Positions 2,552-40,701 of a stretch of DNA of 58,963 bases are shown here, piece after piece. The stretch covers positions 1 to 58,963 of the forward strand of contig JACQDB010000002.1 of assembly GCA_016201275.1 (NCBI GenBank), in the 5' to 3' direction. Position numbers and translations under genes: made by a program. The notes beneath the pieces are model-generated. The model ran no database searches. It was given only the letters and a program-made list of their open reading frames with translations, and was not told the origin of the DNA. This DNA is from Acidobacteriota bacterium (lineage in GTDB: Bacteria; Acidobacteriota; Blastocatellia; UBA7656). Every line of letters begins with the position of its first letter. Within the stretch, counting starts at the first letter, position 1.

Positions 2552-3187
2552 ATGTCTGTACATCTTTTGCAAACGAACGCTCTATTCTTACATATCCCCA
2601 AGACCGGAGGTACGTGGATCGAACAAGCGTTAAATGTCGCTGCAATTGAAAACGAGTACGCCAAAGCTATCGAGACCGTGACCTGGCGTCATTCGTTGAT
2701 GAGTCAATACACTGCAAAGCATGACTTCATCTTTACCTTTGTCAGACATCCATTGAGTTGGTACGAATCTTGGTGGAAATTTCAAACTTGGCTTGACTGG
2801 GTTGAACATGAACCGGGGGTGTGGCACCCGCAAAGAATTCTCAAACCCTGTGCCGCAAATGATTTTTCAGAATTCATACGCTTGTGTATAAAACATGAGC
2901 CTGCCTATGTGAGCCGTATGTATGAATGGTATATCGGCCCTCAAGGAGCCGAGTTTGTCAATTTTATTGGCTATTTTGAGCGACTTGTAGAGGATTTGGT
3001 GCGCGTGCTTAAACTTCTCTGCATAGATTTTGATGAAACCCTCTTACGCAATCAACCGTCCGCGAATGTAAGTGGCAAGCCATATGGAGAGCCGGTCTGG
3101 GATGAAGAGTTGAAAGCACAAATCCTGGCCTTGGAAGTTCCAGCCATCAGGCGATTTTATAACGATGAACAACTCGTAGTTTATTGA
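2552..3187 (+). CDS. Sulfotransferase family protein
   Basis: 211 residues. It has the two PAPS-binding signatures of the sulfotransferase family: the 5'-phosphosulfate loop near the N-terminus (FLHIPKTGGTWIEQAL, about residues 12-27) and the 3'-phosphate motif (FTFVRHPLSWYESWW, about 60-74). The usual reaction is transfer of sulfate from PAPS to a hydroxyl on a carbohydrate or other acceptor; the acceptor cannot be read from sequence. AAAGGA lies 6 nt before the ATG. It stands alone: tandem hairpins lie upstream and repeat DNA downstream. Base composition is slightly more AT-rich than neighbouring genes, hinting at transfer. Confidence 0.8.
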   Translation: MSVHLLQTNALFLHIPKTGGTWIEQALNVAAIENEYAKAIETVTWRHSLMSQYTAKHDFIFTFVRHPLSWYESWWKFQTWLDWVEHEPGVWHPQRILKPCAANDFSEFIRLCIKHEPAYVSRMYEWYIGPQGAEFVNFIGYFERLVEDLVRVLKLLCIDFDETLLRNQPSANVSGKPYGEPVWDEELKAQILALEVPAIRRFYNDEQLVVY

Positions 3188-3208
3188 AGAGTTGAGGGAT
3201 TACCCAGC

Positions 3209-3320
3209 CTAGAGCGGTTTGCATATGTGTGTACTGCTCCCCCCTATCGTTGAGCGGCAGTCTTCGACCGCTGCTCAACGGCTTTGAGGTTTCCGTAATC
3301 TCAAACCAAAACCGCTCTAG
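3209..3320. mobile_element. Small palindrome-ended element (MITE-like, 112 bp)
   Basis: The ends are exact inverted repeats (CTAGAGCGGTTT at 3209-3220, its complement at 3309-3320). Inside is an imperfect hairpin (3248-3280, CGTTGAGC... / ...GCTCAACG). It has no coding capacity. The architecture resembles a non-autonomous element, but no clear target duplication is visible and no second copy was found here. Confidence 0.45.
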
Positions 3321-3340
3321 TTGTGAGAGTTGAACGCTGT

Positions 3341-3523
3341 GCGGCTGTGCCGCTTTGATGTGCGGAGAGTCTCGGACTCTCCGGTAGGTTTGCCACACTC
3401 TTTTTGCGGCTGCGCCGCACCGGAGGCTGCGCCTCAGAAAAGCTTGGCGGCGCAGCCGCGAGAGTAGGAAGTGCAGCTTACGGAAAGGCGTAGCCTATCC
3501 GCACATCAAAGCGGCGCAGCCGC
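3341..3523. repeat. Inverted repeat, 26-bp arms
   Basis: Arms at 3341-3366 and 3498-3523 match in 25 of 26 positions and contain GCGGCTG(T/C)GCCGC plus TTTGATGTGCGGA. The DNA between them is itself rich in short GCGGC/GCCGC palindromes. It is non-coding and lies immediately upstream of the first 98-bp MITE copy, so the whole 3,200-3,650 stretch is repeat-filled. Confidence 0.6.
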
Positions 3524-3543
3524 AAGCACTGGCTGGGTAGTTA

Positions 3544-3641
3544 GAGCGTGTTGCATAAATAGATGTTTTGTCCAGATATTGTACATGACGGCCTAATCAT
3601 CCACAACATATGGGCGGTTGCTGGGATTCTGCGACACGCTC
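3544..3641. mobile_element. 98-bp MITE, copy 1
   Basis: The ends are inverted repeats (GAGCGTGTTGCA ... TGCGACACGCTC). TAGTTA flanks it on both sides (3538-3543 and 3642-3647), a 6-bp target duplication. The interior (TGTCCAGATATTG, CCACAACATATGGGC) is shared with copies at 13,014 and 14,346. It is too short to code for a transposase, so it must be moved by an enzyme supplied elsewhere. An apparent reading frame crossing it is not a gene. Confidence 0.8.
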
Positions 3642-3768
3642 TAGTTACCGAGCTAAAGCGTTTCTATACTATGAAGTCCAGAGGAATCACATTGACGCTG
3701 CTCTATGGGCATTGTTTAATTAACACGCCTATAACGCGCCCGACATCATTTCTATAACGGAGATTTTT

Positions 3769-5079
3769 ATGACTGCTCAAAACCAAGCGTCGCAAACTAC
3801 GACCGCCGAATTGCTCGCCAAACAGAAAGAGTATGGCTGGCCCTGCGCCACGCAATATTATGAACATCCTATCGCTCTCACTCACGGCGAAGGTATGCAC
3901 GTCTTTGACGCCGAGGGGCAGCGCTACCTGGATTGCTTCGGCGGCGTGTTGACCACTGCCGTCGGCCATGCTCGTCCCGAAGTCGTCAATGCCATCAGCG
4001 AACAGGTGGCGAAAATCGCGCACACCTCGACGCTTTATCTGAACGAACAGACGGTCAATCTCGCCGAGAAAATGGCGCAGCTTACGCCGGGCAGATTGAA
4101 AAAATCGTTCTTCACCAACAGCGGCACAGAGGCCGACGAAACCGCTATGGTGCTGGCGCGCATCTACACCGGCAACACCGAAATCATTGCCCTGCGCCAC
4201 GCCTATCACGGGCGCTCGGTGATGAATATGACGGCGACAGGGCATTCGACCTGGAAACACAGCAGCGTCTTGATGCCCGGCATCGTTCACGCCCACGCGC
4301 CCTATTGTTATCGTTGCCCGTTCAATTTGAAACCGGAATCGTGCGCGCTGGAATGCGCTACGGATGTCGAAGAGTTGATTCAAACTGCGACCTCCGGCAA
4401 AATCGCCGCCTTCATCGCCGAACCCATCATGGGCGTAGGCGGTTTCATCACCCCGCCTAAAGACTATTTCAAAGTCGTCACTGACATCGTGCGGCGTTAC
4501 GGCGGTATCTTCATCTGCGATGAAGTGCAGAGCGGTTGGGGACGCACCGGCGACAAATGGTGCGGCATAGAGCATTGGCAAGTTGAACCTGAAGTGATGA
4601 CCTTTGCCAAAGGCATGGCCAACGGCTCACCCGTAGGCTGCACCACGGCGATACCGGAAGTGGCGGACAAATATCCGGGGCTGACGTTTTCAACTTTCGG
4701 CGGCAATCCTGTGACTTCGGCGGCGGCCTTGGCGACCATTCGCGTCATCGAAGAAAATGATTTGCCGAACAACTGTCGCGTAGTTGGCGATTACCTTCGA
4801 GGCAAGCTCGATGAGTTGAAAGACAAATATGAAGTGATCGGCGAGGTGCGCGGCATGGGCTTGATGCAGGCGATTGAATGCGTCAAAGACCGCACCACCA
4901 AAGAGCCGCACCCGCAGGCGGTGTTGAAAGTTTTTGAAGAGACACGCAAGCGCGGCGTATTGATTGGCAAAGGCGGCTTGTACGGCAACATCATTCGTTT
5001 AGGAATGCCCATGATCGCTTCAACCGCAGACATTGACGAATTGGTGACGGCGCTGGATGCGGCATTTTCGGCGGCCTGA
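3769..5079 (+). CDS. Class III (PLP) aminotransferase, alanine-glyoxylate/beta-alanine type
   Basis: 436 residues, normal for class III aminotransferases. It contains the family's PLP region ICDEVQSGWGRTG, followed by a lysine-bearing segment TFAKGMANG (the Schiff-base lysine), and an early substrate-domain motif GGVLTTAVGHARPEV. The closest relatives by motif are AGXT2-like and 4-aminobutyrate/beta-alanine transaminases. These move an omega- or alpha-amino group to pyruvate or glyoxylate in the cytosol. A dihydropyrimidinase gene lies 2.8 kb downstream on the same strand, which would fit a role in pyrimidine breakdown (beta-alanine or 3-aminoisobutyrate), but the two are not in one operon. 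CGGAG lies 7 nt before the ATG. Substrate is uncertain. Confidence 0.82.
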   Translation: MTAQNQASQTTTAELLAKQKEYGWPCATQYYEHPIALTHGEGMHVFDAEGQRYLDCFGGVLTTAVGHARPEVVNAISEQVAKIAHTSTLYLNEQTVNLAEKMAQLTPGRLKKSFFTNSGTEADETAMVLARIYTGNTEIIALRHAYHGRSVMNMTATGHSTWKHSSVLMPGIVHAHAPYCYRCPFNLKPESCALECATDVEELIQTATSGKIAAFIAEPIMGVGGFITPPKDYFKVVTDIVRRYGGIFICDEVQSGWGRTGDKWCGIEHWQVEPEVMTFAKGMANGSPVGCTTAIPEVADKYPGLTFSTFGGNPVTSAAALATIRVIEENDLPNNCRVVGDYLRGKLDELKDKYEVIGEVRGMGLMQAIECVKDRTTKEPHPQAVLKVFEETRKRGVLIGKGGLYGNIIRLGMPMIASTADIDELVTALDAAFSAA

Positions 5080-5364
5080 TCCTGGGTCAAAGCTCTATCA
5101 CCGTCTTTCATAAGCACCGCATCACTTGAAAAGCGCGACTACGAAAAAAAGGAAAATCATTTCGACGAGTATTCATCAGCTACTTTGCCATTTTCTGCGT
5201 GCGGCACGCTTCGCCGCTTGAGGGCAAGCGTCAACTCGCAAAAAAGCCCGTCTTTATTGGGCGAAATCACCTTTTTCACTTTCTTAGTCGTGCCTTTGAG
5301 CTACCGACGGACGGGCCGTGGCGGCCTATCCGTTTTTCTCCACGGTCGCAACATCACCAAAAGC

Positions 5365-5648
5365 AGTAGTGGATCAATCGGGAGAGATAGAGTTTGGAGT
5401 TCCGCCTTCAGGCTAATGACATGAAGTGAAGCGGCATAGATGTAGCGCAGGCGGTCTAGCCGGCGGCGGGCTTGGTTGTAGAAGCGCACGAAATCCCAGT
5501 CTTAGCTTGCTGCTGTCCGCCGCAGACTAGACCGTCGGCGCTACAACTTAACGCCATTGGTCTGAAGGCGGTCTTGTTAGCGGCTGAAACAACCGCCTGA
5601 AGGCGGAACTCCAAACTTTTCTTTTCTCTCCTCCTTGACCCACTACCT
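5365..5648. mobile_element. Nested-palindrome element, about 284 bp
   Basis: Arms of 23 bp at 5391-5413 and 5595-5617 are perfect complements (AGTTTGGAGTTCCGCC...). Weaker complementarity continues outwards to about 5365 and 5648 (GTAGTGG(A/G)TCAA). Inside, a second pair (5441-5459 and 5527-5545, TGTAGCGC...GGTCTAG) forms an inner stem. There is no coding content. This looks like a non-autonomous element or a decayed relic. The rest of 5,080-5,720 holds nothing recognisable. Confidence 0.55.
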
Positions 5649-5720
5649 TTTTTTGAACCCTTTCACCGAAAAAACCTGCGATTTCATGTGAGCGTACAGA
5701 TTCACTTATCTCAAGGGGGC

Positions 5721-6419
5721 ATGATGACTGGTAAACTTAAACCGCTGCTCAACTGGCCTGTGGCACTTACGGTGATTTTATTAGCGGTGTCGGTCTTCGC
5801 ACAATCACCGCAGAGCGCCGCTGAATTCCTGAAACGCGGCATCGCGCATCAAGAACATCAACGCTTCGCTGAAGCCTTGAGTGATTTCAACAAAGCGATA
5901 GAACTTGACCCGCAACTTGCCGAAGCCTATTGCCAACGCGGCAAGGTGCAGCTTGACAAGCGCAAAGCCGACGCCGATTTTACCCAAGCCATTCAACTCA
6001 AACCTGATTACGCAGAGGCGTTTTATCAGCGCGGCTTGAATAAAGACTTGACCGACGAAGCCGCCGCGCTGCTTGATTACACCAGCGCCATCAAGCTCAA
6101 TCCGAACCTCGTTGCAGCTTATAGGACACGCGCTGTCATCTACCTGATTCGCGGCTTCAACCAACAGGCGATAGCCGACTACACCAAAGTGATTGAGCTA
6201 AGACCGCAGGAGGGTTCAAGCTATTATGTGCGCGGCACGGCTTATCTGGACACCGGCGATGCGGCGCGGGCAATTGTTGATTTAAGCAAAGCCATCGAAC
6301 TTGAGCCGACCTATTATTGGGCTTACCAACAACGCGCCAAAGCCTATCGCAAAACCGGCAAACTCAAATTGGCGCAAGCCGACGAAGCCAAAGCCGCACA
6401 GATCGGCGCGCCCAAATAA
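5721..6419 (+). CDS. Secreted TPR-repeat protein
   Basis: About 232 residues. A start at 5721 or 5724 is chosen because AAGGGGG lies directly upstream and the next residues form a signal peptide (KLKPLLNWPVALTVILLAVSVFAQS). The mature part is about five tetratricopeptide repeats with the usual spacing (AEFLKRGIAHQEHQRFAEAL, then repeated 'A..Y..RG.......A..D...AIEL.P'). TPR domains bind other proteins; the partner is unknown. A second secreted TPR protein starts 62 bp downstream on the same strand, so the two are probably co-transcribed. Confidence 0.8.
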   Translation: MMTGKLKPLLNWPVALTVILLAVSVFAQSPQSAAEFLKRGIAHQEHQRFAEALSDFNKAIELDPQLAEAYCQRGKVQLDKRKADADFTQAIQLKPDYAEAFYQRGLNKDLTDEAAALLDYTSAIKLNPNLVAAYRTRAVIYLIRGFNQQAIADYTKVIELRPQEGSSYYVRGTAYLDTGDAARAIVDLSKAIELEPTYYWAYQQRAKAYRKTGKLKLAQADEAKAAQIGAPK

Positions 6420-6481
6420 ACCTGCCTTGTTTAAGCGCTGTAGCCGCAAGGCGAAACGCAAATTTTTCGGAGAAGAAAATT

Positions 6482-7825
6482 ATGAAACTGGTGAAAATTT
6501 CTGTCGTGTGGATGATTCTGCTTGCGCTTTCGGGCCACGCCTGGGCGCAAGGGTTTGGTAAACCTGTGGATGATGGAGCCGGAGAATATGCCCGCAAACT
6601 TATTGAATTTCATCGGGCATCGGTCGCCAATCTGCTCAAGAAAGTAGATATTGAACCATTCGCGGTCAGTTTCTACGGCTGGCGCGCTTTGACCATCGTG
6701 CGGCTGCCCTTCAACAAATATGAAGGCACGCATTTGACCATCTGCCGTTTGGCGCTGTCGGTTTACGATAAAGAACTCGACGAGGTGTTGCAGACTTTGG
6801 CCACTCGTCCGACTTCGATGACGGATTTTGTAGAAGCCACGCCTGCCGAAAAATCCGCCGTGCAGAAATTCGTGGTGCAGAAATACGGCGGCAAATATCT
6901 GACCGGACTTAGCGCGATTACAGCAGGCGACAGCCAAGCCGCGCCGGAAAAAAAGGACGAAGGTGCGGCGTGGAAATATCGCCTCGGCGCTGTCTTGGGC
7001 GAACTCGCAGGCAGCGTCACCAAATGGTTTGTCTTTCCCAACAACGCGAAATACGATGAAGCGATTTCCGGCTACTTCGCCAGCCTCGATAAACTCATAC
7101 GGGAAGCGCCCAAGGATGCGCCGCCGGAACTGTTGACCAATCTGAAACAGCTTGCGGCTTTCGGCAGTAAAAAATTCTTTGCACCTGATGAACGCCAGCA
7201 AATCGGCGCGGCGCTCAAACAAACTTTGCCGACAACCATAGGCTTTGCCAAACCGCTGCCCAAAGCTCTTGAAGATTTCGCCAACGCCGTCGAAAAAGCA
7301 AATCCTGCGCCTGCGGCAACGAAACCCGCGCCGCCTGCGCTGACGGACACTGCCAAAGCCAAAGAGGTTGCCGCGCAGTATCGTCAAGAGGGCTTGGCGA
7401 AATACAACAGCAAAATGTATGACCCGGCGATAGACGATTTCAATCGCGCTCTGGCGCTTGACGCCGACAATCCGCAAATCTACGCCAATCGCGGCCAGGC
7501 GCTTCTGGAAAAAGGCGAAGTCGAGAAAGCCATTTTCGATTTTACGAAAGCTATCAATTTAGGCGGCGTCACTGCCGAAGACTATTATTATTTGAATGAA
7601 CGGGCGCGGGCCTATTACAAAAAAGGCGAGAAAGAGTTGGCGCTTGCCGATTTGAATATGGCGATTGCGCTCAACGCGAAAAACGCTTATGGCTATTATA
7701 TGCGCGGCTTCATCTACAAAAATCAGGGCAACGCGGCGCAGGCAAGAATTGATTTTCAAGCGGCGGTCAATCTCAATCCCAATTTTCAAGCGGCGAAGGA
7801 TGAATTGATAAAACTTGGAAAGTAA
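6482..7825 (+). CDS. Secreted protein with C-terminal TPR repeats
   Basis: 447 residues from the ATG at 6482, chosen because it starts a clear signal peptide (MKLVKISVVWMILLALSGHAWA) and has CGGAG upstream; a longer reading back to 6317 overlaps the preceding gene. The N-terminal about 320 residues do not resemble a family I can name. A Pro/Ala-rich linker near residue 280 leads to three or more TPR units (about 320-440). It is likely periplasmic or secreted and paired with the preceding TPR protein. Confidence 0.78.
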   Translation: MKLVKISVVWMILLALSGHAWAQGFGKPVDDGAGEYARKLIEFHRASVANLLKKVDIEPFAVSFYGWRALTIVRLPFNKYEGTHLTICRLALSVYDKELDEVLQTLATRPTSMTDFVEATPAEKSAVQKFVVQKYGGKYLTGLSAITAGDSQAAPEKKDEGAAWKYRLGAVLGELAGSVTKWFVFPNNAKYDEAISGYFASLDKLIREAPKDAPPELLTNLKQLAAFGSKKFFAPDERQQIGAALKQTLPTTIGFAKPLPKALEDFANAVEKANPAPAATKPAPPALTDTAKAKEVAAQYRQEGLAKYNSKMYDPAIDDFNRALALDADNPQIYANRGQALLEKGEVEKAIFDFTKAINLGGVTAEDYYYLNERARAYYKKGEKELALADLNMAIALNAKNAYGYYMRGFIYKNQGNAAQARIDFQAAVNLNPNFQAAKDELIKLGK

Positions 7826-7912
7826 TAAGGTAAGCACTTCATTGGAATGCTTCTCTATTTTGGCATAAGATAATTTGCCACAACGTGAAAACATTTCGAG
7901 AGGGCGATACTT

Positions 7913-9298
7913 ATGAAAACCTTAATCAAAAATGGCAACGTCGTAACCGCAACCGATAATTATTTTGCTGATGTGTTCATCGAAGACGACAAGGTTTCCG
8001 TCATCGGCGCGAGGCTCGACATCGAAGCCGATAAAGTTATAGACGCAGCAGGCAAGCTGGTCATCCCCGGCGGCATAGACCCGCACACGCACATGGAGTT
8101 GCCGTTTGGCGGCACCTCTTCATCCGACGATTTTCGCACCGGCACGATTGCCGCAGCGCACGGCGGCACTACCACGATTATTGATTTCGCGGTGCAAGCG
8201 CACGGCGAATCGTTGAAGCAAGCGGTTGATAATTGGCACGCGAAAGCCGAAGGCAAAACCGCTATAGATTATGGCTTTCATCTCATCACCACGGATTTGC
8301 CGGACGAGCGCGTGCCGGAGATGAAAGATTTAATCGGCGAAGGCATCAGCAGTTTCAAATTGTTCATGGCTTATCCGGGCGTTTTTCTGTCGGATGACGC
8401 GACCATCTATCGCGCCATGAAAGCGGCAGGCAAAGATGGCGGCTTGATTTGTATGCACGCCGAAAACGGCATCGTCATCAACGAGATCATCAAAAACGCA
8501 CTCGCTGAAGGCAAGACCGCGCCGAAATTTCACGCTCTGACGCGCCCGACGAAAGCCGAAGCTGAAGGCGTGCATCGCGCCATTGCGATTGCCGAAATGG
8601 CCGAAGCGCCCGTCTATATTGTTCATTTGAGTTGTTCCGATGCGCTTGACGAAGTGCGTGAAGCTCGCGATCTGGGCTTGCCTGCGTATGCCGAAACCTG
8701 CCCGCAGTATCTGTTTTTGGACTACACGCATTATGAGCAGGAAGGTTTCGAGGGCGCAAAGTTTGTGATGACGCCGCCGCTTAGAGAGAAGTGGAATCAG
8801 GAGAAGTTGTGGGCCGGACTTCGCACCGATGATTTGCAAGTCGTCTCGACCGACCATTGCCCTTTCTGTTTCAAAGAGCAGAAAGAATTAGGCTTGAATG
8901 ATTTCACCAAGATTCCCAACGGCGGCCCCGGCGTCGAACATCGCATGAGCTTGATTTATAACGGCGGCGTCGCTCAAGGTCGCATCAGCGTGAATCGTTT
9001 CGTCGAATTGACTTCGACAGCAGCGGCAAAAATCTTCGGCCTGTTCCCGCGCAAAGGCACGATAGCCGTAGGCTCTGATGCCGACATCGTTATCTTTGAC
9101 GCCAACGCAACGCAGACGCTTTCGGCTTCAACCCATCACATGAACGTGGACTATAGCTGTTATGAAGGCATGACCGTGCAGGGCGCGACGAAGACCGTTT
9201 TATCACGCGGTCGCGTGGTCATAGAAGAGGGCAAGTTTACCGGCAAAGCCGGAGACGGACAATTCTTAAAGCGCGGTACTTTCGGCGGCTGGTATTGA
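7913..9298 (+). CDS. hydA: Dihydropyrimidinase (D-hydantoinase)
   Basis: 461 residues, standard length. It opens the ring of dihydrouracil or dihydrothymine to the N-carbamoyl beta-amino acid in reductive pyrimidine breakdown. The metal-binding HTH (DPHTHMELPFGG, about residue 58), the carboxylated-lysine segment (SSFKLFMAYPG), later histidines (CMHAEN, YIVHLSC) and the aspartate of VSTDHCPF are all present, as expected for a binuclear zinc amidohydrolase. GAGAGGG precedes the ATG. No dihydropyrimidine dehydrogenase or beta-ureidopropionase is in the window. Hydantoinase or phenylhydantoinase activity is the main alternative. Confidence 0.9.
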   Translation: MKTLIKNGNVVTATDNYFADVFIEDDKVSVIGARLDIEADKVIDAAGKLVIPGGIDPHTHMELPFGGTSSSDDFRTGTIAAAHGGTTTIIDFAVQAHGESLKQAVDNWHAKAEGKTAIDYGFHLITTDLPDERVPEMKDLIGEGISSFKLFMAYPGVFLSDDATIYRAMKAAGKDGGLICMHAENGIVINEIIKNALAEGKTAPKFHALTRPTKAEAEGVHRAIAIAEMAEAPVYIVHLSCSDALDEVREARDLGLPAYAETCPQYLFLDYTHYEQEGFEGAKFVMTPPLREKWNQEKLWAGLRTDDLQVVSTDHCPFCFKEQKELGLNDFTKIPNGGPGVEHRMSLIYNGGVAQGRISVNRFVELTSTAAAKIFGLFPRKGTIAVGSDADIVIFDANATQTLSASTHHMNVDYSCYEGMTVQGATKTVLSRGRVVIEEGKFTGKAGDGQFLKRGTFGGWY

Positions 9299-9444
9299 GC
9301 AAGCCTATAACGGTGGCGTAGTCATACCGTCATGGTCTGTGGCTTGTCGCCCGATGATCGCCGCCATCAATTTGCCAAGACGGTGGTGCCGCAGCGGGCA
9401 GCCATTTGACTTGGCTACTCTACGGCAGAAATGAAAATGTGACT

Positions 9445-10443
9445 ATGGCCTTACAAGACTTTTCCCAACCCGCCGCCGAGTTGTCTTCAGCATCTGAAAA
9501 TCCCCTCGCCCGCTTCGTTGAGCGCCAGGGGGTACTGGTGCTTGATGGGGGGTTGGCTACGACTCTGGAAGCGCGCGGCTACGATTTGCGCGACGACCTG
9601 TGGTCAGCCAAGATACTGCTCGAAGCGCCGGAGGCCATCCGACAAGTGCATCTGGATTTTCTCGCTGCCGGGGCCGATTGCCTGATTACCTCGACTTATC
9701 AGGCCAGCCTTCCGGGGTTTCGCAAGCGCGGTTTGAGCGACCGCGAAGGCGTCGAATTGTTGCGCCTCTCGGTGCGCTTGGCGGTTGAAGCGCGCGATGC
9801 TTTTTGGCGCGACGCCGACAACCACAGTGGTCGTTTGCGACCCATCGTTGCCGCCAGCGTCGGCCCTTACGGCGCATTCTTGTCCGATGGCTCGGAGTAC
9901 ACTGGGCGCTACGATATTGATGATGAGGCGCTCTACGCCTTTCATAAAGAGCGTTGGGACATTCTCTGTGACAGCCCTGCGGAGTTGCTGGCTTGCGAGA
10001 CCATCCCTTGCCGACGCGAAGCCGGAGTGCTGATGCGCCTCTTGCAGGAAACGCCTGACCGTTGGGCTTGGATGAGTTTTAGTTGTCGTAACGACGTTGA
10101 AATCAGTGACGGAACCAAGCTGATTGAGGTGGCGCGGGACTGCGACACGCAGCCGCGAGTAGCGGCGGTGGGAATCAACTGCACGCCGCCGCAGTACATC
10201 GCGGCGTTGGTGCGGACGGCACACGCGGGAACTCAAAAGCCGATCATGGTTTATCCGAATGCCGGAGAGACCTACGACGCCGAGCGCATGACTTGGGAAG
10301 CCGCACCGCTGTCAACCGATTGGCGAACGCTGTCGAGTCAATGGGCTAAACTGGGCGCTGTGGCCATAGGAGGTTGTTGTCGGGTGAATCCCCAAGAAAT
10401 CGCCGCGATTCGTCAGCAGACCGTCAACCCGGCGCGACTTTAA
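9445..10443 (+). CDS. mmuM: Homocysteine S-methyltransferase
   Basis: 332 residues from the ATG at 9445; an upstream TTG at 9406 in the same frame is less likely because the family starts shortly before the VLDGGLATTLEARGYDL motif. It transfers a methyl group from S-methylmethionine (or SAM) to homocysteine to make methionine. The zinc-binding cysteines are visible as GINCTPP and the C-terminal GGCCRVNP. It stands alone, with no mmuP permease nearby. Confidence 0.88.
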   Translation: MALQDFSQPAAELSSASENPLARFVERQGVLVLDGGLATTLEARGYDLRDDLWSAKILLEAPEAIRQVHLDFLAAGADCLITSTYQASLPGFRKRGLSDREGVELLRLSVRLAVEARDAFWRDADNHSGRLRPIVAASVGPYGAFLSDGSEYTGRYDIDDEALYAFHKERWDILCDSPAELLACETIPCRREAGVLMRLLQETPDRWAWMSFSCRNDVEISDGTKLIEVARDCDTQPRVAAVGINCTPPQYIAALVRTAHAGTQKPIMVYPNAGETYDAERMTWEAAPLSTDWRTLSSQWAKLGAVAIGGCCRVNPQEIAAIRQQTVNPARL

Positions 10444-10639
10444 GAATGGTGAATGAAATAACCCGCAAGACTTGAGCGCTTTTCCCAGGCTTGGTGTGGG
10501 CGATCACCATAGGGTCATCCGCACCAGATTGCACTTTATTTCATCCACCTTCCTAACTCCCCTACGCTGTCGGCTAAGGCGACAGTCATTTCTTCGCGTT
10601 GACCCGTTACTCAAAAAGGCTCAAGCCGAAATCGTGTGC

Positions 10640-10678
10640 GGTATAAAAAACAAAAGGGGCGAAACCAGGTTCCGCCCC
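10640..10678 (-). terminator. Rho-independent terminator of the metzincin-like gene
   Basis: Read on the minus strand, a GGGGCGGAACC / GGTTTCGCCCC stem (11 bp, one mismatch, 1-nt spacer) at 10656-10678 is followed by TTTTGTTTTTTAT. This is a classic intrinsic terminator about 45 nt after the stop codon of the gene at 10723-11571. The rest of 10,444-10,722 shows nothing else. Confidence 0.8.
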
Positions 10679-10722
10679 ACAATCTGCTTCTTCCAGACTC
10701 GACAAACTTTTTTGCGCCCGCG

Positions 10723-11571
10723 TTAATTTTGTCGTTGTCGTCCGTTCTCGCCTTTGGGTTTTACGTCTTCCGGGTCCGCCCAGGTGACAAAGGTGAACAC
10801 CTTAAAGCCATTGCCGAAATCCAGTTCGTAAAGCATATTCCGACCATCAGGGGACTGATCAATTATTTTGCCCCACTGTCCGGGGCCTTTGAAATCTATG
10901 TCATTCATGGCCGGTGGTGCTTCGCCTTCGACGGTCAAATGCTCTTGCGTCAAACCAACCGTGGTGCTGCTGTCTAGATGCGAATAGATGGTCACCAGTT
11001 CATCGTAGTCGTGTTGATTGGGATGTTGGTTGGTGCTGGGATCATTCGTATAATCCATGCAGGTTCCAAGGTTGGGATTGGTGAAATTCACATCCTGATG
11101 ATCGAGGCCAAGCGTGTGGCCGACTTCCTGACAGGTCACCAAATTTCTCCAGGCCGGAGTGTTGTACTTCGCCTGGTCAAAATAGTAATCATTCAACTTC
11201 ACTGTGCCTTGCGTAATGTGGCTGCCGCTTACCCATACCTGAGCTACGCCCAGCCAACCGGTATTGCCATAGCGCGAGTTGCAGACTTCGACTCTGCCAT
11301 TTGTCGGGCGGCAATTTTTCGGCGTGGTGCCGCCGGCGACGATAGTCGTGTTCAAAACCGTTGACACCGTCCAATCCGATGAAGTGGTCGCCAGATAAGG
11401 GTCCCAAGTCGAGTTCACATTATCGCCCAGTTTCAAGTTGAAAGGGTTGCTCTGGCGCGCCCAGTGGTAGCCATTCCACGAGTGATTAGCAGACGTAATC
11501 AACGTAAAAGCGCTGAAGGTGAGCAAGATGAGTATCACAGCAAATGATGATCGGCGAAAAATTTTCGGCAT
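10723..11571 (-). CDS. Secreted metzincin-like protein with altered zinc motif
   Basis: 282 residues, with a signal peptide (MPKIFRRSSFAVILILLTFS...) and a good AAAGGAGA ribosome binding site. The middle contains CQEVGHTLGLDHQD (residues 147-160) followed by a Met-turn candidate TCMDY (Met172), the layout of matrixin-type metzincins (HExxHxxGxxH ... M). The first histidine of the motif is glutamine (Gln148), confirmed from the DNA codon CAG, while Glu149, His152 and His158 are kept. It may be a distinct sub-family with a modified zinc site, or inactive. Located at the cell exterior by its signal peptide. A terminator follows. Confidence 0.7.
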   Translation of the reverse strand: MPKIFRRSSFAVILILLTFSAFTLITSANHSWNGYHWARQSNPFNLKLGDNVNSTWDPYLATTSSDWTVSTVLNTTIVAGGTTPKNCRPTNGRVEVCNSRYGNTGWLGVAQVWVSGSHITQGTVKLNDYYFDQAKYNTPAWRNLVTCQEVGHTLGLDHQDVNFTNPNLGTCMDYTNDPSTNQHPNQHDYDELVTIYSHLDSSTTVGLTQEHLTVEGEAPPAMNDIDFKGPGQWGKIIDQSPDGRNMLYELDFGNGFKVFTFVTWADPEDVKPKGENGRQRQN

Positions 11572-11985
11572 AAAAATCTCCTTTCCAAATAACCAGCGTT
11601 GTCAAAAAATCCATCCGCGCATACGGACGGGTGACGTTCATTTCCTTGCTTCAGTTTCCTCCACCAGCCAACTGACCACTCACAAATAAGCAACCGGGAT
11701 GTTTTGAAATCGTCCCTTTGGTCGCCTACAAATATTCGGAGAAGTATTGCGAGGAAATGAATTTGGTGAAACCTCCGCCATACTATGCAAGGGGTGAGAA
11801 AATGTCAATGCGACGCCGTTGGCTCGACCGGTTCGCCTTCATCTGTCAGCCACAAGTGCAGGACGTTGCCCCCGGCATTGGCGGAGTTGATTCCGATGAA
11901 TTCGTCTGCAGGCTTGTGGTTCCTGTTGGCATTGCTGATAATGTGTGACCGTGAAAAGTGCTATGGAAGGCGACACCACAAGCTC
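11572..11985. other. Divergent intergenic region
   Basis: It separates two divergently transcribed genes (metzincin-like on minus, orphan envelope protein on plus). No RNA gene, repeat or confident promoter was recognised. Short open frames across it have no supporting features. Confidence 0.4.
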
Positions 11986-12744
11986 ATGAAAATCAAGCAA
12001 ACCTATGTGAAAAAATTTTTGCTCCTGCTGTTGTTGGCGTTTTGCAGTCTGGCGCTGCGCTGCGCCTCTAGCAACAAACTCGAATCCGGCGATGTCAATC
12101 AGGAAGACATCTATCAAGCGTACTTTGTCAGACGGGCGCAGGAGGCTGTAGAAATCAGAGCGACGTTTCGCTTGAAAGATAAATTCGGCGACACGCTGGC
12201 GCTCACCCATCCGAGTCACGTCACCGGCAATGATAAAGAGATGGTGCGCCGCGACGGGTTTATGAGCGGTGCCAATTACGTCGCGGACGCCAAAGCGTAT
12301 CAAGCCGCACATAAATTTGACTTCACCACCACCAAAGGCAAAACCTACACCAATGCCATCAACTTGGAGTCTATAGACTTCAGTGGCAATGCCGCGACCA
12401 CGCTCAGTAAAACCGCGCCATCGGTTTTATCGGTGACCCGCATCGTCAAAGAAGAGGGCGTCAAGGTGACGCTTTCGATCAAAGACGGCAAAGACCAGCA
12501 AGCTTATGCCGAGGTACATGGCAGCAGAGGCGTGGTCGGCTTTCGCAATTCCGTTTATTTCGATGACGCCAGGAAAGCCATCATCATCGAGCCGGATTTC
12601 CTCAAAGACTTTGCCGCCGGTGCGGTGACAATCACGTTGACAGCGCGCAAAGAAAAAACCGCCGAGCAGGCGACCGCTCGCGGCGGTGAACTGGTCATCG
12701 AATACGAGGCCAATCCGCTCACCGCAAACGTGAGCGGCAAGTAA
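11986..12744 (+). CDS. Putative membrane-anchored or secreted protein, unknown family
   Basis: 252 residues from the ATG at 11986, chosen because a signal sequence (KKFLLLLLLAFCSLAL) follows. A cysteine right after (LALRCASSN) could be a lipid-attachment site, although arginine at -1 is atypical. The mature part is soluble, alternating beta-rich and charged, and ends with a segment that reads like an Ig-like or beta-sandwich fold (VLSVTRIVKEEGVKVTLS...). No family recognised. Upstream reading to 11785 is not supported. Confidence 0.65.
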   Translation: MKIKQTYVKKFLLLLLLAFCSLALRCASSNKLESGDVNQEDIYQAYFVRRAQEAVEIRATFRLKDKFGDTLALTHPSHVTGNDKEMVRRDGFMSGANYVADAKAYQAAHKFDFTTTKGKTYTNAINLESIDFSGNAATTLSKTAPSVLSVTRIVKEEGVKVTLSIKDGKDQQAYAEVHGSRGVVGFRNSVYFDDARKAIIIEPDFLKDFAAGAVTITLTARKEKTAEQATARGGELVIEYEANPLTANVSGK

Positions 12745-12872
12745 GACCGCATTGCAAAACTGTAAAAGTAAGCACTACTTGAGAGGCGAGTTTTCGGCTA
12801 TATGCTTTAGCCGACCGCGATAATCGTATGACCAAACGTCACGGCCCAGTCATATTTGCCTCGCAGGGGTGT

Positions 12873-12955
12873 AGGAAATTAGCCAGTGCTACAGGCACTG
12901 GCATCAAGTTGGGCAAACGCTGCGCGCCTTGAAAGGGTGCAGGAGATAGATTGCC
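12873..12955. repeat. Interspersed repeat, copy 1 (AGGAAATT...CAGTGCTACAGGCACTGG)
   Basis: About 80 bp are alignable with the copy at 40,538: AGGAAATT, GTGCTACAGGCACTGG, ATCAA, GGCAAA, then GGGTGCAGGAGAT / GGGCGCAGGAGAT. The repeat contains its own short palindrome (AGTGCTACAGGCACT). It is non-coding. Together with the MITE that follows it fills most of 12,745-13,168. Confidence 0.6.
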
Positions 12956-13013
12956 GCCAGCCTACGGCGCGAAAATCCATAGACCGACAATTTTCCACCA
13001 AGCTGAGTAGTTG

Positions 13014-13112
13014 AAGGGTGTTGCATAAATGAATTGTTTTGTCCAGATATTGTGTGCGACTGTCTAACCTTCCACAACATATGGGCTGCTTCTGGAATTC
13101 TGCGACACGCTC
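13014..13112. mobile_element. 98-bp MITE, copy 2
   Basis: Same family as the copies at 3,544 and 14,346, with the interior TGTCCAGATATTG and CCACAACATATGGGCTGC. Flanks are TAGTTG (13008-13013) and TAGTTA (13113-13118), a 6-bp target duplication with one change. One terminal base is altered (A for G at the left end) and it is 1 bp longer, so this copy is slightly decayed. Confidence 0.78.
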
Positions 13113-13168
13113 TAGTTACGACCAAATTCTTTTTCCTAATCGTTCAGCAATAGCCGCACGCGCCTTTA

Positions 13169-14308
13169 TCAGCGGCGGCTTTTCTGCACCGCGACCTCCA
13201 GCAGTTCGCCTTTGGTCGAAAAAGAAAAGCGAATATTCAAATCCACGACTCTCCGTAGCTGACGTTCGATCTCTGGTATGGTCGCATAAATCATGCCGAC
13301 GGTTCCCGCTGGCACTTCATCGGTGGCAGAAGGTTCTACATAGTCTGTGTGTTCGATGCGTTGGGCCTCAAGAAGTTCTCGCACCCTTGGCAAACTGAGG
13401 CCGTGAACCATCTCACGATCCAGCCATTGTTTTATCTCCGTGAAGGTTGAACTGGAAGCATTTCTTTTTAACTTCAAGGCGGCAAATTTCTGTAAGCGTT
13501 TCCAGAGAATCGTCACGCTGCCATCTTCGTGGCGGCGCAGCACGCGAAACGCGACCACGGTGTTCGCGCCATCATAGCCCAAGCTGGCGAACCGCAGGCG
13601 ATAATACGGTTCATGCGGATGCACCACGAAGCCATCCTTCTGATAGATAATCGAGCGCAGCACATAAGTGGTATTGAGCTTGACGCTGACCACTGAACGA
13701 TAGACGAAACCATCAGCCTCAAGGCCGTGAGAACTCTTCTCCGCTAACTCGACCATCTCTGCATAGCGTTTGGGCGGCGCAAGGCGAAGCAAAAAATTGA
13801 CTCCGGCGGTGGTCTGGGTTAGCGCTTCAAGCGCTACATCGCCAAGGTCCAAGAAGAGGCCAAGAGCGTTGTTGGCGACTCCGGCAAGCAGGCGATTTTC
13901 TTCCAGACAGATTTCCGACCACGGCCCCAGCTTGTTGGTTTTCTCTGTGAACGAGTAATAGGCTCCGCCACCCAGTAGGGGCAAAATCATGTCGGTCGCT
14001 GCCTGTTCGACGGAGACCGTGCGCCCGGGTTCGTACTTGCCTTTCGGATGTAGACGAACAAGGCCGGTATTCTTCTGCTTCAGGAAGGCAGCAAACCGTT
14101 CCTGATCCTGCGGCAAAGGCGCGAGCAGGACTTTTTGCTCGTCGGTCAATTTGGTGTCGTAAAAATTTGGTCGCGTTCCGATCCAGTTCACTTCTCCACG
14201 CGGTTGTGGCGTGGGCATTCCCCAGGAACTCTGCCCATAAGCCAGCACGGAAAGAAGAACTATGGAAACGATTGCGCGCCAGGAATTGCATAGCCAAGGA
14301 CACAACAT
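13169..14308 (-). CDS. Secreted protein of unknown family
   Basis: 379 residues from an ATG at 14308; a TTG at 14314 has the better-spaced GAGG and is an alternative start. A hydrophobic stretch near the N-terminus (AIVSIVLLSVLAYGQ) acts as signal peptide. The mature protein has no motif I can name; it begins with a DEQK-rich segment and ends with ELLEAQRIEHTDYVE and a final beta-rich part. It is flanked on both sides by copies of the same MITE (13,014 and 14,346), so the gene sits between two repeats that could support recombination or deletion. Confidence 0.65.
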   Translation of the reverse strand: MLCPWLCNSWRAIVSIVLLSVLAYGQSSWGMPTPQPRGEVNWIGTRPNFYDTKLTDEQKVLLAPLPQDQERFAAFLKQKNTGLVRLHPKGKYEPGRTVSVEQAATDMILPLLGGGAYYSFTEKTNKLGPWSEICLEENRLLAGVANNALGLFLDLGDVALEALTQTTAGVNFLLRLAPPKRYAEMVELAEKSSHGLEADGFVYRSVVSVKLNTTYVLRSIIYQKDGFVVHPHEPYYRLRFASLGYDGANTVVAFRVLRRHEDGSVTILWKRLQKFAALKLKRNASSSTFTEIKQWLDREMVHGLSLPRVRELLEAQRIEHTDYVEPSATDEVPAGTVGMIYATIPEIERQLRRVVDLNIRFSFSTKGELLEVAVQKSRR

Positions 14309-14345
14309 TTTCAATGAAGCCTCACAGAAAAATAGAGTATAGATA

Positions 14346-14443
14346 GAGGGTGTCGCATAAATGAATGTTTTGTCCAGATATTGCGTGCGACTGTCTAACC
14401 TTCCACAACATATGGGCTGCTTCTGGAATTCTGCGACACACTC
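14346..14443. mobile_element. 98-bp MITE, copy 3
   Basis: Ends GAGGGTGTCGCA ... TGCGACACACTC. TAGATA lies directly outside both ends (14340-14345 and 14444-14449), a perfect 6-bp target duplication. The interior is almost identical to copy 2. It lies upstream of the secreted-protein gene that ends at 13,169. Confidence 0.82.
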
Positions 14444-14456
14444 TAGATAGAGACCT

Positions 14457-14487
14457 AGCAGGGAAAAGCACCCCTCTTTTCCCTGCT
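14457..14487 (-). terminator. Hairpin after the M20 amidohydrolase gene
   Basis: Perfect 12-bp arms (AGCAGGGAAAAG and complement, 14457-14468 and 14476-14487) around a 7-nt loop, located about 45 nt after the amidohydrolase stop codon in its direction of transcription. There is no long U-tract, so termination efficiency is uncertain. Confidence 0.5.
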
Positions 14488-14531
14488 GGTTTACGATAAA
14501 CCTTTTTCCCTTGCCTTCACCGCCTTGGCGT

Positions 14532-15836
14532 TCACTTCGCGTGGCGGTCTAAATAATCCAGCAGGACATTCGACATCAACTTCACGCCGATGACCAGCGC
14601 CTCTTCGTCGGCGTCGAATTCCGGGGTGTGAATCATCGCCGTAATGCCTCTGGCCTGATTGCCGACGCCCAGAAAGTAAAAGAAACCGGGAATAATTTTT
14701 TGATACTTGGAAAAATCTTCCGCGCCCATCTGCGGTTTCGGTGTGGTGATATTTTTGTCGCCCAGCAAACGCTTCATCGTCGGCAAGGTCTCTTCGACCA
14801 GTTTCGGGTCGTTGTAAGTCACCGGGTTTGGTTGCGCGAATTCCAGTTCCGCCGTCGCCCCGTATGCCGAGGTGATGCCGTCCAAAGTTTTCTTCATCAT
14901 GTCGTGAGCTTTGCTTCGCACCGCTTCGCTCAAAGTTCGCATTGTCCCTTCCATCACCACTTCATCGGCGATGATGTTGAAACGATTGCCGCCGTGTATG
15001 CTGCCAATGGTGATAACCAGAGGTTCTTGCGTATCTATGCGGCGGCTGCGAATGGTTTGCAAAGCCGAGACGCATTCGGCGGCGACCACTACGGCGTCTA
15101 TGCCGTCGTGCGGGTACGCGCCATGAACTTTTTTGCCATGCACTTTGATGTTGAACTTTTCCGATGAGGCCATTGCCGCGCCGGAATTGATGCCGATCTG
15201 TCCGACTTCAATGTTCGGCATGACGTGCAAACCGTAGATCGCCTGCGGTCGCGGATTTTCCAGACAACCTTCTTTTATCATTAAGCCCGCGCCGCCTTCT
15301 TCGCCTGCGGGTGCGCCTTCTTCGGCAGGTTGAAAGATAAATTTGATCGTGCCGCTGATTTGGTCGCGCCTCTTCGACAGGACTTCGGCCACGCCCAGTT
15401 CAATTGTCATATGCAGGTCGTGACCGCAGGCGTGTTTGACGCCTGGGTTCTGCGATTTATACGGCACATCTATATTTTCTTGAATCGGCAGCGCGTCCAT
15501 ATCAGCGCGCACGGCGACCACGGGGCCGGGCTTTGCACCTTTCAATAAAGCGACCACGCCATATTTGCCGATGTTGGTTTTGACTTCCAGACCGAGGGCG
15601 CGCAATTTTTCCGCGACGACTTTGGCGGTGCGCTCTTCGCGGTTCGACAACTCCGGGTGCATATGAAAATCGCGGCGTTGTTCGATGAGGTTCTGGCGTA
15701 ATGATTCACTCGCCTGAGCAATAGATTGGTCGCGTGATTGTAGAGTTGTGAGCGAATTTCGGGAAGCGGTTTTCTGCCCCGCAAAGGCAACCAGAGAGAA
15801 AGAGAGCAAGAGGACGAAGACCAGCGATTTTTTCAT
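14532..15836 (-). CDS. Secreted M20-family amidohydrolase
   Basis: 434 residues from an ATG at 15836 with CAGGAG upstream and a clear signal peptide (MKKSLVFVLLLSFSLVAFAG). M20D peptidases of this type (hippurate or indole-acetyl-amino-acid hydrolase-like) cut an acyl or aryl group from an amino acid using two metal ions. The metal ligands appear in HACGHDLHMT, in QPAEEGAP, and near the C-terminus in GAEDFS and IHTPEFD. The signal peptide puts it in the periplasm or outside. Substrate cannot be told. Confidence 0.85.
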   Translation of the reverse strand: MKKSLVFVLLLSFSLVAFAGQKTASRNSLTTLQSRDQSIAQASESLRQNLIEQRRDFHMHPELSNREERTAKVVAEKLRALGLEVKTNIGKYGVVALLKGAKPGPVVAVRADMDALPIQENIDVPYKSQNPGVKHACGHDLHMTIELGVAEVLSKRRDQISGTIKFIFQPAEEGAPAGEEGGAGLMIKEGCLENPRPQAIYGLHVMPNIEVGQIGINSGAAMASSEKFNIKVHGKKVHGAYPHDGIDAVVVAAECVSALQTIRSRRIDTQEPLVITIGSIHGGNRFNIIADEVVMEGTMRTLSEAVRSKAHDMMKKTLDGITSAYGATAELEFAQPNPVTYNDPKLVEETLPTMKRLLGDKNITTPKPQMGAEDFSKYQKIIPGFFYFLGVGNQARGITAMIHTPEFDADEEALVIGVKLMSNVLLDYLDRHAK

Positions 15837-16530: not shown

Positions 16531-18096
16531 TTATTGCTGAAAATCCCGCCAAAATTGCCGCAATTTCACATGACTGACCTTTTCCTGCTTGGTTTCCTCA
16601 AACGACTTTGACAAGGCTTCGCCTGATTTCAGATTTGCCACCTCGGAAACCAGAGTACGCGCCCGGTGAGCGGGAATGCCAAGCGCGCTCTGTAAAAATT
16701 TCGTCGCGTTGGCGCTTGATTGCAGAACAAAAATAAATTCCAGCATCTCGGCAAAATCAAATTCGCTTTGTTCATAATCATCCGGCGATTGCGATAGCAG
16801 AAACACTGACGCGCCTTTGCTGCGTATCTCGCGGATCAGTTTTTGTAGAACGCGATTGCGTTTCTTATCGCGCAGATAATGATGCGCTTCGTCTATGACG
16901 ATAATCGTTCGCATCGCCCGTGCGCCGTTGATTACTTCGCTATCCGGCATGGCCATCAATTCGCGGTGCAGAGCATCCAGAACCAGACACACGGTCAGTT
17001 CGCGCAGCACCGTCAATTCATGCAAATCAACAATGACGGTTTTATCCGTGAGCGTTGTCCATTGTTCTTCAAGATACGCGGGCGCGAAGATATTAAATTC
17101 GGTAATCTGCCGCATAATTTCCGTCAAGGTGTCTGGCTTGCGATTGTTGTTGGCATACGCGTCTTCTACTTCGCTTCGCACCGAATAGAAATCAGGGTAC
17201 GGCGGCTGATGTACACGACAGTTATCAAAGGCCAAACGAATGGCTTCATAAAGCATCTGTCCTTGAATAGAACCTAGATTTCGTTCCACATCGCGCACGG
17301 TGTCGGAAAATTCCTGTGCCGCCATCTTCACGGACATTTCGCTGGTGATGTTGACGCGGCTGAACGGATTGAATGGCAAGCTCTCCGTAGGCAGATGCAC
17401 AACGCGAGAGCGCGTCGCTTCAACGAAGGTTTCGTCGTTGGCAACATCACCTTTTGAATAGTCGAAAAAGATAAAGTTGACCTTGTAATCGGATTGTTGC
17501 CGCAGTTGAGCGAGAATATCTTTGACGAATTGCGTCTTGCCGCTGCCCGGTTTACCCGCGACCGCAAGATAATTATTGGTGCGGCGATTGAACTCAACTC
17601 GCACTGGCGCACCGGTCTTGGCGTCTTCGCCAAGCATCAGCGTCAGCAAACCGGAAAACGATGGAACGATTTCCGGCGCGGGCGGCGTTTCCAGTTTGCG
17701 TTGTTCCAAACCGGTCTGTGTCAATTCGATCAGGTAATCCACCCAATCATCGGTGCTTTTAAATGTCGCAGTGTCCTGGCGAATCAGGTTGAAGCCGTGA
17801 TCTACATGGGCTTTGAGAAGTTGCAGAAACTCATCGTCCGTAAGGGCGCGTTTATGGCGTTGCACAATGAGGGCGCGATACAGCGCCGCATAATCCGCTT
17901 CACCCGCGCTGAGAATTTGTTGCGTATCTATTGAGCGTCCGTCCGCCGGAAACGCATCAGGGCTTGGCAAATCGCCCGACAGCAACGAACGCCCGATGGC
18001 GATGCGAATCGGCACATAGTTGACGCGCACATCCCATACACGCTTGAGCGTGTCAACAATTTCCCAAGAGGTTTGCGAGGGTCGTATATCCGGCAT
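16531..18096 (-). CDS. dndE: DndE-like domain fused to HerA/VirB4-type ATPase
   Basis: 521 residues. Residues 1-110 resemble DndE (DUF1832): WDVRVNYVPIRIAIGRSLLS, later 'ILSAGEADYAALYRALIVQR' and KAHVDHGFNLI, i.e. the arginine/asparagine/leucine pattern and the closing H...G of that family. From about residue 170 it is a P-loop ATPase of the HerA/DUF87 kind: Walker A GKPGSGKT (181-188), Walker B IIVIDEAHH (398-406), IREIRSKG (421-428) and SQSPDDY (435-441). DndE binds nicked DNA in the phosphorothioation complex; HerA-like motors act on DNA ends or unwind it. The ribosome binding site is AGGAAACCTT just before the ATG. Last gene of the dnd island in transcription order. The fold assignment of the N-terminus is by eye and needs a profile search. 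Confidence 0.72.
   Translation of the reverse strand: MPDIRPSQTSWEIVDTLKRVWDVRVNYVPIRIAIGRSLLSGDLPSPDAFPADGRSIDTQQILSAGEADYAALYRALIVQRHKRALTDDEFLQLLKAHVDHGFNLIRQDTATFKSTDDWVDYLIELTQTGLEQRKLETPPAPEIVPSFSGLLTLMLGEDAKTGAPVRVEFNRRTNNYLAVAGKPGSGKTQFVKDILAQLRQQSDYKVNFIFFDYSKGDVANDETFVEATRSRVVHLPTESLPFNPFSRVNITSEMSVKMAAQEFSDTVRDVERNLGSIQGQMLYEAIRLAFDNCRVHQPPYPDFYSVRSEVEDAYANNNRKPDTLTEIMRQITEFNIFAPAYLEEQWTTLTDKTVIVDLHELTVLRELTVCLVLDALHRELMAMPDSEVINGARAMRTIIVIDEAHHYLRDKKRNRVLQKLIREIRSKGASVFLLSQSPDDYEQSEFDFAEMLEFIFVLQSSANATKFLQSALGIPAHRARTLVSEVANLKSGEALSKSFEETKQEKVSHVKLRQFWRDFQQ
18011..18096. repeat. 86-bp direct repeat, copy A (5' end of dndE-ATPase gene)
   Basis: These are the first 29 codons of the dndE-ATPase gene. 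The same 86 bp, with 9 differences, occur at 19,239-19,324 in the same orientation. Only one of the differences within the coding part changes the protein (Thr9 to Ser). Confidence 0.9.
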
Positions 18097-18169
18097 AAGG
18101 TTTCCTGTTCAATAAAACGTGACAGACAATTTTTTAGCTTGAGAGGATTTGTCATAACCTCGCGCCATG

Positions 18170-19205: not shown

Positions 19206-19324
19206 AATGAGTAGGATTTTACTCCTGTCGTCGTCATTGGTACATAGTTGACGCGCACATCCCATACACGCTTGAGCGTATCAACAATTTCCCATGATGA
19301 TTGTGATGGTCGAATATCAGGCAT
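19196..19324 (-). pseudogene. Truncated duplicate of dndE-ATPase start
   Basis: Reads MPDIRPSQSSWEIVDTLKRV, then 9 more codons matching the intact gene, and then 13 unrelated codons before a stop at 19196-19198. The loss of similarity at codon 30 marks the boundary of the DNA that now separates the two copies. The residual frame overlaps the broken UPF0175 gene. Confidence 0.85.
19239..19324. repeat. 86-bp direct repeat, copy B
   Basis: Matches 18,011-18,096 in 77 of 86 positions, same orientation. Together the two copies bracket the block 18,097-19,238 that carries the PIN toxin, its antitoxin and the broken UPF0175 gene. Confidence 0.9.
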
Positions 19325-19336
19325 AATAGTGTCATC

Positions 19337-40435: not shown

Positions 40436-40701
40436 TGCAACGGCTCAATCATCTTTGCCCCGGAGGATGGCAGCGACTCGCGCATTAAATACTCTCTGTC
40501 GCGCAACGGCTCAGGCGTCTTTGCCCCGAAGGGGGGCAGGAAATTCACCCGTGCTACAGGCACTGGAATCAAATCCGGCAAATTTTTCGCACCCTGAATG
40601 GGCGCAGGAGATTTTCTGTAGTAGGCTTTCCGGCGCTTCTTCAGAGCGCGGCTCTCAAGCCCTTGACGCTTTCCAGTGCCTGTAGCACTGGCGAATTTCC
40701 T
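40436..40701. repeat. Interspersed repeat, copy 2, with inverted arms
   Basis: 31-bp arms (40538-40568 and 40671-40701; AGGAAATTC...CAGGCACTGGAA) match except two bases. The left part aligns with 12,873-12,955 through GGGCGCAGGAGAT. Before it, a 30-bp phrase (GCAACGGCTCA..C.TCTTTGCCCCG) is duplicated at about 40,436 and 40,503. Non-coding. Confidence 0.6.

Follow-up and report, generated by a model that had tools for sequence, protein, structure and literature searches.

The window analysed here is a stretch of 58,963 nucleotides from an Acidobacteriota bacterium of the UBA7656 lineage in Blastocatellia (assembly GCA_016201275.1, contig JACQDB010000002.1, positions 1 to 58,963 of the forward strand). 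It contains three copies of one 98-bp palindromic element, starting at positions 3,544, 13,014 and 14,346, exactly where a preliminary description of the sequence had placed them. All three share the ends GAG(C/G)GTGT(C/T)GCA as well as the interior. Copy 1 (3544..3641, forward strand) lies between two TAGTTA repeats (3538..3543 and 3642..3647), and the left one at the same time terminates another intergenic repeat (GGCTGGGTAGTTA, 3531-3543). Copy 2 (13014..13112, forward strand) is 99 bp long, with one inserted T, and is flanked by TAGTTG (13008..13013) and TAGTTA (13113..13118), i.e., five of the six bases match. Copy 3 (14346..14443, forward strand) has TAGATA on both sides (14340..14345 and 14444..14449). 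Copies 2 and 3 are 96% identical; the identity of copy 1 is 84% with copy 2 and 82% with copy 3.

Copy 1 has a sulfotransferase-like gene on one side and a class-III aminotransferase gene on the other, and an M20 peptidase gene sits beyond copy 3. Copies 2 and 3 bracket an open reading frame (ORF) of 381 amino acids (13169..14314, reverse strand), which is separate from the element. It starts at TTG, its N-terminus is hydrophobic as judged by eye, and it has no Pfam match at E 0.001. That this gene could be deleted by recombination between copies 2 and 3, as proposed earlier, is speculation.

The element belongs to a large family. In the source genome (6.84 Mb in 162 contigs, assembly 98.7% complete) the terminal 12-mer pattern GAGNGTGTNGCA occurs 210 times, compared to 6 times for the reversed control, and a two-part interior pattern with up to three mismatches is found at at least 194 places, compared to none for its control. 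The genome-wide search for the ends, which the preliminary description had asked for, thus reveals a dispersed multicopy family far beyond chance. For a closer analysis, 66 stretches around the listed places and 14 around terminal-pattern ends without a listed partner were sampled; these are the first among the matches listed and not a random draw, and they include only part of the unpaired ends. A profile made from 31 copies identifies 122 distinct copies in 382,975 sampled bases (overlaps included).

The copies are very uniform. Model positions 3 to 96 at least are covered by 116 of the 122, and the remaining six miss at most four of the 98 positions. Their length is 94-99 bp over the copies tabulated, i.e., below 500 bp and without coding capacity. 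Almost all exact terminal 12-mers in the sampled stretches (127 of 130) belong to the 122 copies; the three stray ones comprise an additional end located 16 bases beyond a full copy (C108:16996), an end interrupted by a contig end (C40:9652) and one that has no TA flank and lies in unrelated sequence (C5:6836). With laxer search settings, a single weak partial match is gained (C93:59164-59211, E 0.15), and no longer version with the ends of the element was seen in the sampled stretches. The mean pairwise identity is 82%, from which the copies look old, and the mean identity to the consensus is 88.5%. This consensus is palindromic, though imperfectly so, with perfect complementarity over the outer 15 positions. 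We also considered local hopping, but the 27 pairs of copies within 10 kb of each other do not exceed the remaining pairs in similarity (0.825 vs 0.820; 1455 of 5000 random samples reach this value). The close pair formed by copies 2 and 3 is therefore an exception and not the rule. Among 39 genomes searched, the source genome included, the element is found only in the source genome and in a relative from the same family, UBA7656 (G003), which carries one copy with 77% identity. NCBI assigns UBA7656 to Blastocatellia. There was no match to the element in plasmids, and the exact interior pattern has zero occurrences in viral contigs.

Placement relative to genes was evaluated with a longest-ORF rule instead of a gene finder, for the 98 copies with 600 bp available on both sides. 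Of these, 82 are clear of ORFs of at least 100 amino acids, 10 lie inside such an ORF and 6 overlap one partially, while 1138 of 1699 random windows from the same stretches (67%) are inside an ORF of this size.

The flanks were compared for 121 of the 122 copies, as one copy at the end of a stretch had too little flanking sequence; the copy at C108:17012 was kept in the counts even though, owing to the second 12-base end outside it, the sequence on its left does not represent a target site. The six bases on both sides are identical in 32 of the 121 copies, whereas 2000 shuffles of the right flanks average 5.45 such copies and never exceed 16, and 62 copies agree at five or more of the six bases. 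Hence, the flanking repeats do not vanish in other copies, the outcome that the preliminary description had set against its own reading. Its 6-bp target duplications are exact in copies 1 and 3 of the window, not in copy 2, and in about a quarter of the sampled copies. A repeat length of six gives a clear signal (z 9.4), lengths 2-5 and 7-9 give none, and lengths 10 and 11 give a weak one (z 2.0 and 2.4). We conclude that six is the right frame for the flanking repeat. The target preference over the 121 copies is TANNTA, so the TAG(T/A)TA proposed from the window was too narrow.

The excess of matching bases is concentrated in the central NN, where 80 and 73 matches are found compared to 44.7 and 39.7 expected. 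The four TA positions match near expectation, partly since they vary little. The 61 copies with matching NN provide 122 comparisons between the outer dinucleotide of one flank and the dinucleotide next to the element in the other. In 27 of these a deviating outer dinucleotide faces TA next to the element, the reverse is seen in 7 and a shared deviation in 6; of the remaining ones, 81 have TA on both sides and one has two deviant and different dinucleotides. Over all 121 copies the corresponding numbers are 73, 17 and 6. The asymmetry is clearest where the element sits at ends of a different repeat (repeat A), as TCGTTA or GAGTTA on the side of this repeat faces TAGTTAC in 9 copies, while the far side is an exact copy in 2 and another sequence beginning with TA in 2. 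We conclude that the element often brings the proximal TA along, or that this dinucleotide is often restored to TA. A strict duplication of 6 bp is thus an incomplete description, as this TA is often kept at targets with a differing outer dinucleotide.

A full-length insertion sequence (IS) with the same ends exists in related genomes. An exact pattern of the left 17 bases, searched over genome contigs, gives 53 loci, which is not above a rough chance estimate of about 120, and only the two loci from UBA7656, L034 and L068, were followed, chosen by organism. At L034, GAGCGTGTCGCATAAATG adjoins a broken transposase with a DUF772 match of 21.4 bits, just under the cut-off of 23.1. A repeat edge of one kind (TCATTAACACCGCGA) adjoins both this broken IS and the small element of the UBA7656 relative. 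A piece of the L034 transposase used as query against 396 genomes of the phylum has matches in four, the best being L175 in the genome G013. L175 is a complete IS of 1,634 bp with GAGCGTGTCGCAGAA at both ends, where a terminal inverted repeat of 17 bp (TAGAGCGTGTCGCAGAA) flanks an ORF of 487 amino acids. The IS with matching inverted repeats, sought as a check on the preliminary description, is thus present, in a relative and not in the source genome. The other loci from the protein search, L176-L179, contain the gene without these ends, and L178 and L179 have different inverted repeats.

The L175 ORF matches the NCBIfam models for ISNCY (NF033593, 4.7e-23, aligned to positions 50-442 of 444) and IS5 (3.9e-14), both under the cut-off. 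Searching 162 genomes of the class with the ISNCY model gives 54 matches in 36 genomes. Thirty of these loci were fetched, and a perfect end is found in three: L212, L214 (the same IS as L175) and L228 (the same as L034); the other 27 lack it. L212 has the flank TAACTA followed by GAGCGTGTCGC, and its right end is off its contig. Protein identity of L212 is 48% with L175 (402 residues) and 53% with L034 (138 residues), and candidate D, D and E residues, assigned by eye from the alignment, are conserved between L175 and L212. Their scores against NF033593, 81.6 bits for L175 and 112.1 bits for L212, fall far short of the curated cut-off (325). By rule, they are therefore distant relatives and not members of ISNCY. 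That the partner is of the ISNCY/IS5-like type is well supported.

The 98-bp family is very probably a family of miniature inverted-repeat transposable elements (MITEs), i.e., non-autonomous DNA transposons, present in about 200 copies and multiplied by a DDE transposase in trans. This agrees with the preliminary description and is supported by the short, uniform length, the inverted repeats, the flanking repeats, the copy number, the mostly intergenic location and the full-length IS with the same ends in a relative. The transposase would have acted on the terminal repeats GAG(C/G)GTGTCGCA, and an enzyme of the L175/L212-type subclade may have moved the copies. Its predicted binding sites are the conserved blocks TGTCCAGATATTGT and ACAACATATGGG in sub-terminal position.

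Several observations weigh against this explanation. The likeness to the IS is limited to the outer 15-18 bp of the element, and a search of the outermost 120 bases, at both ends of L175 and at the left end of L212, gave no sub-terminal blocks. L213, the second-best model match in the class, is without the perfect end. The intact L175 lies between TACATA and TAATTA, both TANNTA sites, so the 6-bp duplication predicted for the full-length IS is not exact there, and within the family the central NN differs between the flanks in 60 of the 121 copies. The source IS is missing from this assembly: neither NF033593 nor PF05598 (DUF772) has a match, the latter being a weak test as L175 itself reaches only E 0.031, none of the four PF01609 (DDE_Tnp_1) matches has these ends, and protein searches with the partner transposase give no match. 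The partner transposase has no match in plasmids either. The source IS may have been lost from the genome or may not have been assembled.

How the flanking repeat is made allows for more than one explanation. It is possible, although we consider it the less likely course, that the mobile unit includes the terminal TA on both sides (TAGAGCG...CGCTCTA, 102 bp). In that case only NN, or NN and one TA, would be duplicated and the 6-bp repeat would mostly reflect site preference. This would agree with the near restriction of the excess matching to NN, with the deviations found mostly in the outer dinucleotide, with the repeat A ends described above, and with the location of the TA within the perfect inverted repeat of the intact L175. 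However, some deviant six-mers are duplicated in full, namely GAATTA, GAGTTA, TAACGA, TAGTTC and TCAATA in the source genome, and the flanks of the single small element in the UBA7656 relative are TCATTA and TCATTA, deviant and yet an exact repeat. Repeat A ends without the element read TAGTTAC (5) or TCGTTAC (4), while an empty GAGTTAC end (GGCTGGGGAGTTAC), the counterpart that the GAGTTA cases lack, was not seen in the sampled stretches.

More tentatively, and with considerable doubt, we suggest that the transposon leaves its donor with the flanking TA as a short overhang and that, within a staggered cut of six bases, this overhang has to pair with the target. If true, this would explain the TANNTA targets and the persistence of the proximal TA at targets without it, as well as the minority of copies with the target's own bases on both sides, which would be true 6-bp duplications. 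The same suggestion extends to insertions whose repeat begins with TAG: the CTAG site formed there would serve a second element, of 104 bp, as its landing place, so that the two parasite families would nest in a fixed order.

This second palindromic element has the ends TATATGCGCGGCACACCAAGATTCGG or TATAGAGGCGGCACACC and is found at 38 places in the source genome, for example L026 (C38:58015-58118), L138 and L148, while none was seen in the window. It lies mostly at C|TA|G, and for 16 of the 38 copies, as counted by script, the position is precisely the foot of one of the 98-bp elements. A 17th such copy, at C73, ends beside the 98-bp copy C73:72443 and was mispaired by the script. The CTAG site at the foot results from the end CTC of the 98-bp element followed by a repeat beginning with TAG.

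The palindrome could instead be a selected structured RNA or regulatory hairpin, such as a terminator, an mRNA stabiliser or a repeat like the repetitive extragenic palindromes (REP), and not a transposon. The consensus does form a long hairpin of -48 kcal/mol, copy 1 has a folding z of -2.6 and a majority version made by hand one of -4.7, and the copies are mostly intergenic, with 21 convergent and 9 divergent gene pairs around 82 of them. However, the fold of copy 3 is not clearly superior to those of its shuffles (z = -1.2), and the 122 copies show no covariation. Pairing is 84.3%, the same as when the letters of the 3' arm are shuffled among copies, and 45 double changes are found where 47.1 are expected. 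RNAalifold finds no structure in the 122-copy alignment, and an Rfam scan of positions 3000-15000 of the window gives no family at the gathering score. The preliminary description would have been in difficulty if the unit lay inside a longer gene or RNA; with no Rfam RNA, no covariation and a location mostly outside ORFs, this is not what was found. A hairpin without covariation is expected of a DNA element such as a MITE, and arms that decay independently fit a mobile element and not a conserved hairpin. Nor would a selected hairpin account for the flanking repeats or for an IS that has these ends, and we regard it as very unlikely.

The least probable explanation, to which we give hardly any weight, is that larger composite intergenic repeats contain the element as a fixed part and carry it along as they spread: by a loose pattern, 34 of 121 copies adjoin a repeat ending like GGCTGGGTAGTTA and others adjoin repeats beginning with TAACCTCGACTTTGTA or the 104-bp element, but the neighbours vary between copies, the same repeat ends also occur without the element, and there are copies with exact repeats such as TAAATA, TATTTA, TAGATA or TAGCTA that have no such neighbours.

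Other repeats accompany the 98-bp family. Long intergenic repeat types, at 3300-3543 of the window and at many loci of the source genome, share ends of the type GTAAC(TA/GA/TC)CCCAGC(C/T) or TAACCTCGACTTTGTA and look like another mobile or palindromic repeat system. At 47196-47612 of the window there is a cluster of direct and inverted repeats around AATCCCCCCGAYGGCARTYGGGGG, with a unit spacing of 42-70 bp, and blocks like this follow TAACCTCGACTTTGTA ends elsewhere in the genome. A pair of 107-bp repeats (12841-12947 and 40506-40612) is 79% identical; the first of them holds AGCCAGTGCTACAGGCACTGG, and blocks like it follow CCCAGCC ends in other contigs. A direct repeat of 91 bp (18008-18098 and 19236-19326) is 89% identical. 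A number of copies or ends of the 98-bp element also lie close to the start of a contig, at most a few hundred bases away (e.g., C66:99, C24:117 and C13:243), so the assembly seems to be broken by clusters of repeats.

Among known systems, the ISNCY and IS5-like IS (NF033593 and NF033578) resemble the candidate partners, as L175 and L212, which have the terminal repeat in common, align to most of the ISNCY model and L175 also matches IS5; the low scores given above set both apart from ISNCY members. In the ISDol1 group, duplications are 6-7 bp. ERIC, RUP and Correia elements, which insert at TA, belong to the same size class as the 98-bp element; however, their ends are different, and the 98-bp element targets TANNTA with a longer repeat. 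According to the review PMC10969869, ERIC and Correia share the high copy number and RUP the nesting with other repeats. This review also describes type II MITEs as non-autonomous IS derivatives that resemble their parent only at the ends. Like the 98-bp element, the bacterial type II MITEs described there are shorter than 500 bp, have terminal inverted repeats and flanking direct repeats, and are multicopy, mostly intergenic and found among or beside other small repeats. Unlike these, the 98-bp family is very uniform in length (all 122 copies nearly full), has TANNTA repeats and has its candidate partner only in other genomes.

The passages on ISNCY in PMC10132070 and PMC8147514 contain no description of the 98-bp element. 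A literature search with both end variants and the interior motif gave nothing relevant among the matches listed, whose titles concern unrelated mammalian biology, and one on MITE or REP repeats in Blastocatellia, Chloracidobacterium and Acidobacteria gave no title on such repeats in this class (Blastocatellia) among the matches listed. The 98-bp elements are a new MITE family with an unusual target signature, but not a new kind of element.

An abundant MITE family is thereby documented in an acidobacterium, and its ends are tied to a specific, little-characterised subclade of transposases, which makes the partner directly testable. The 122 sampled copies form a natural data set on how an apparently six-base repeat is made, and they also bear on how one small element can create the target of another.

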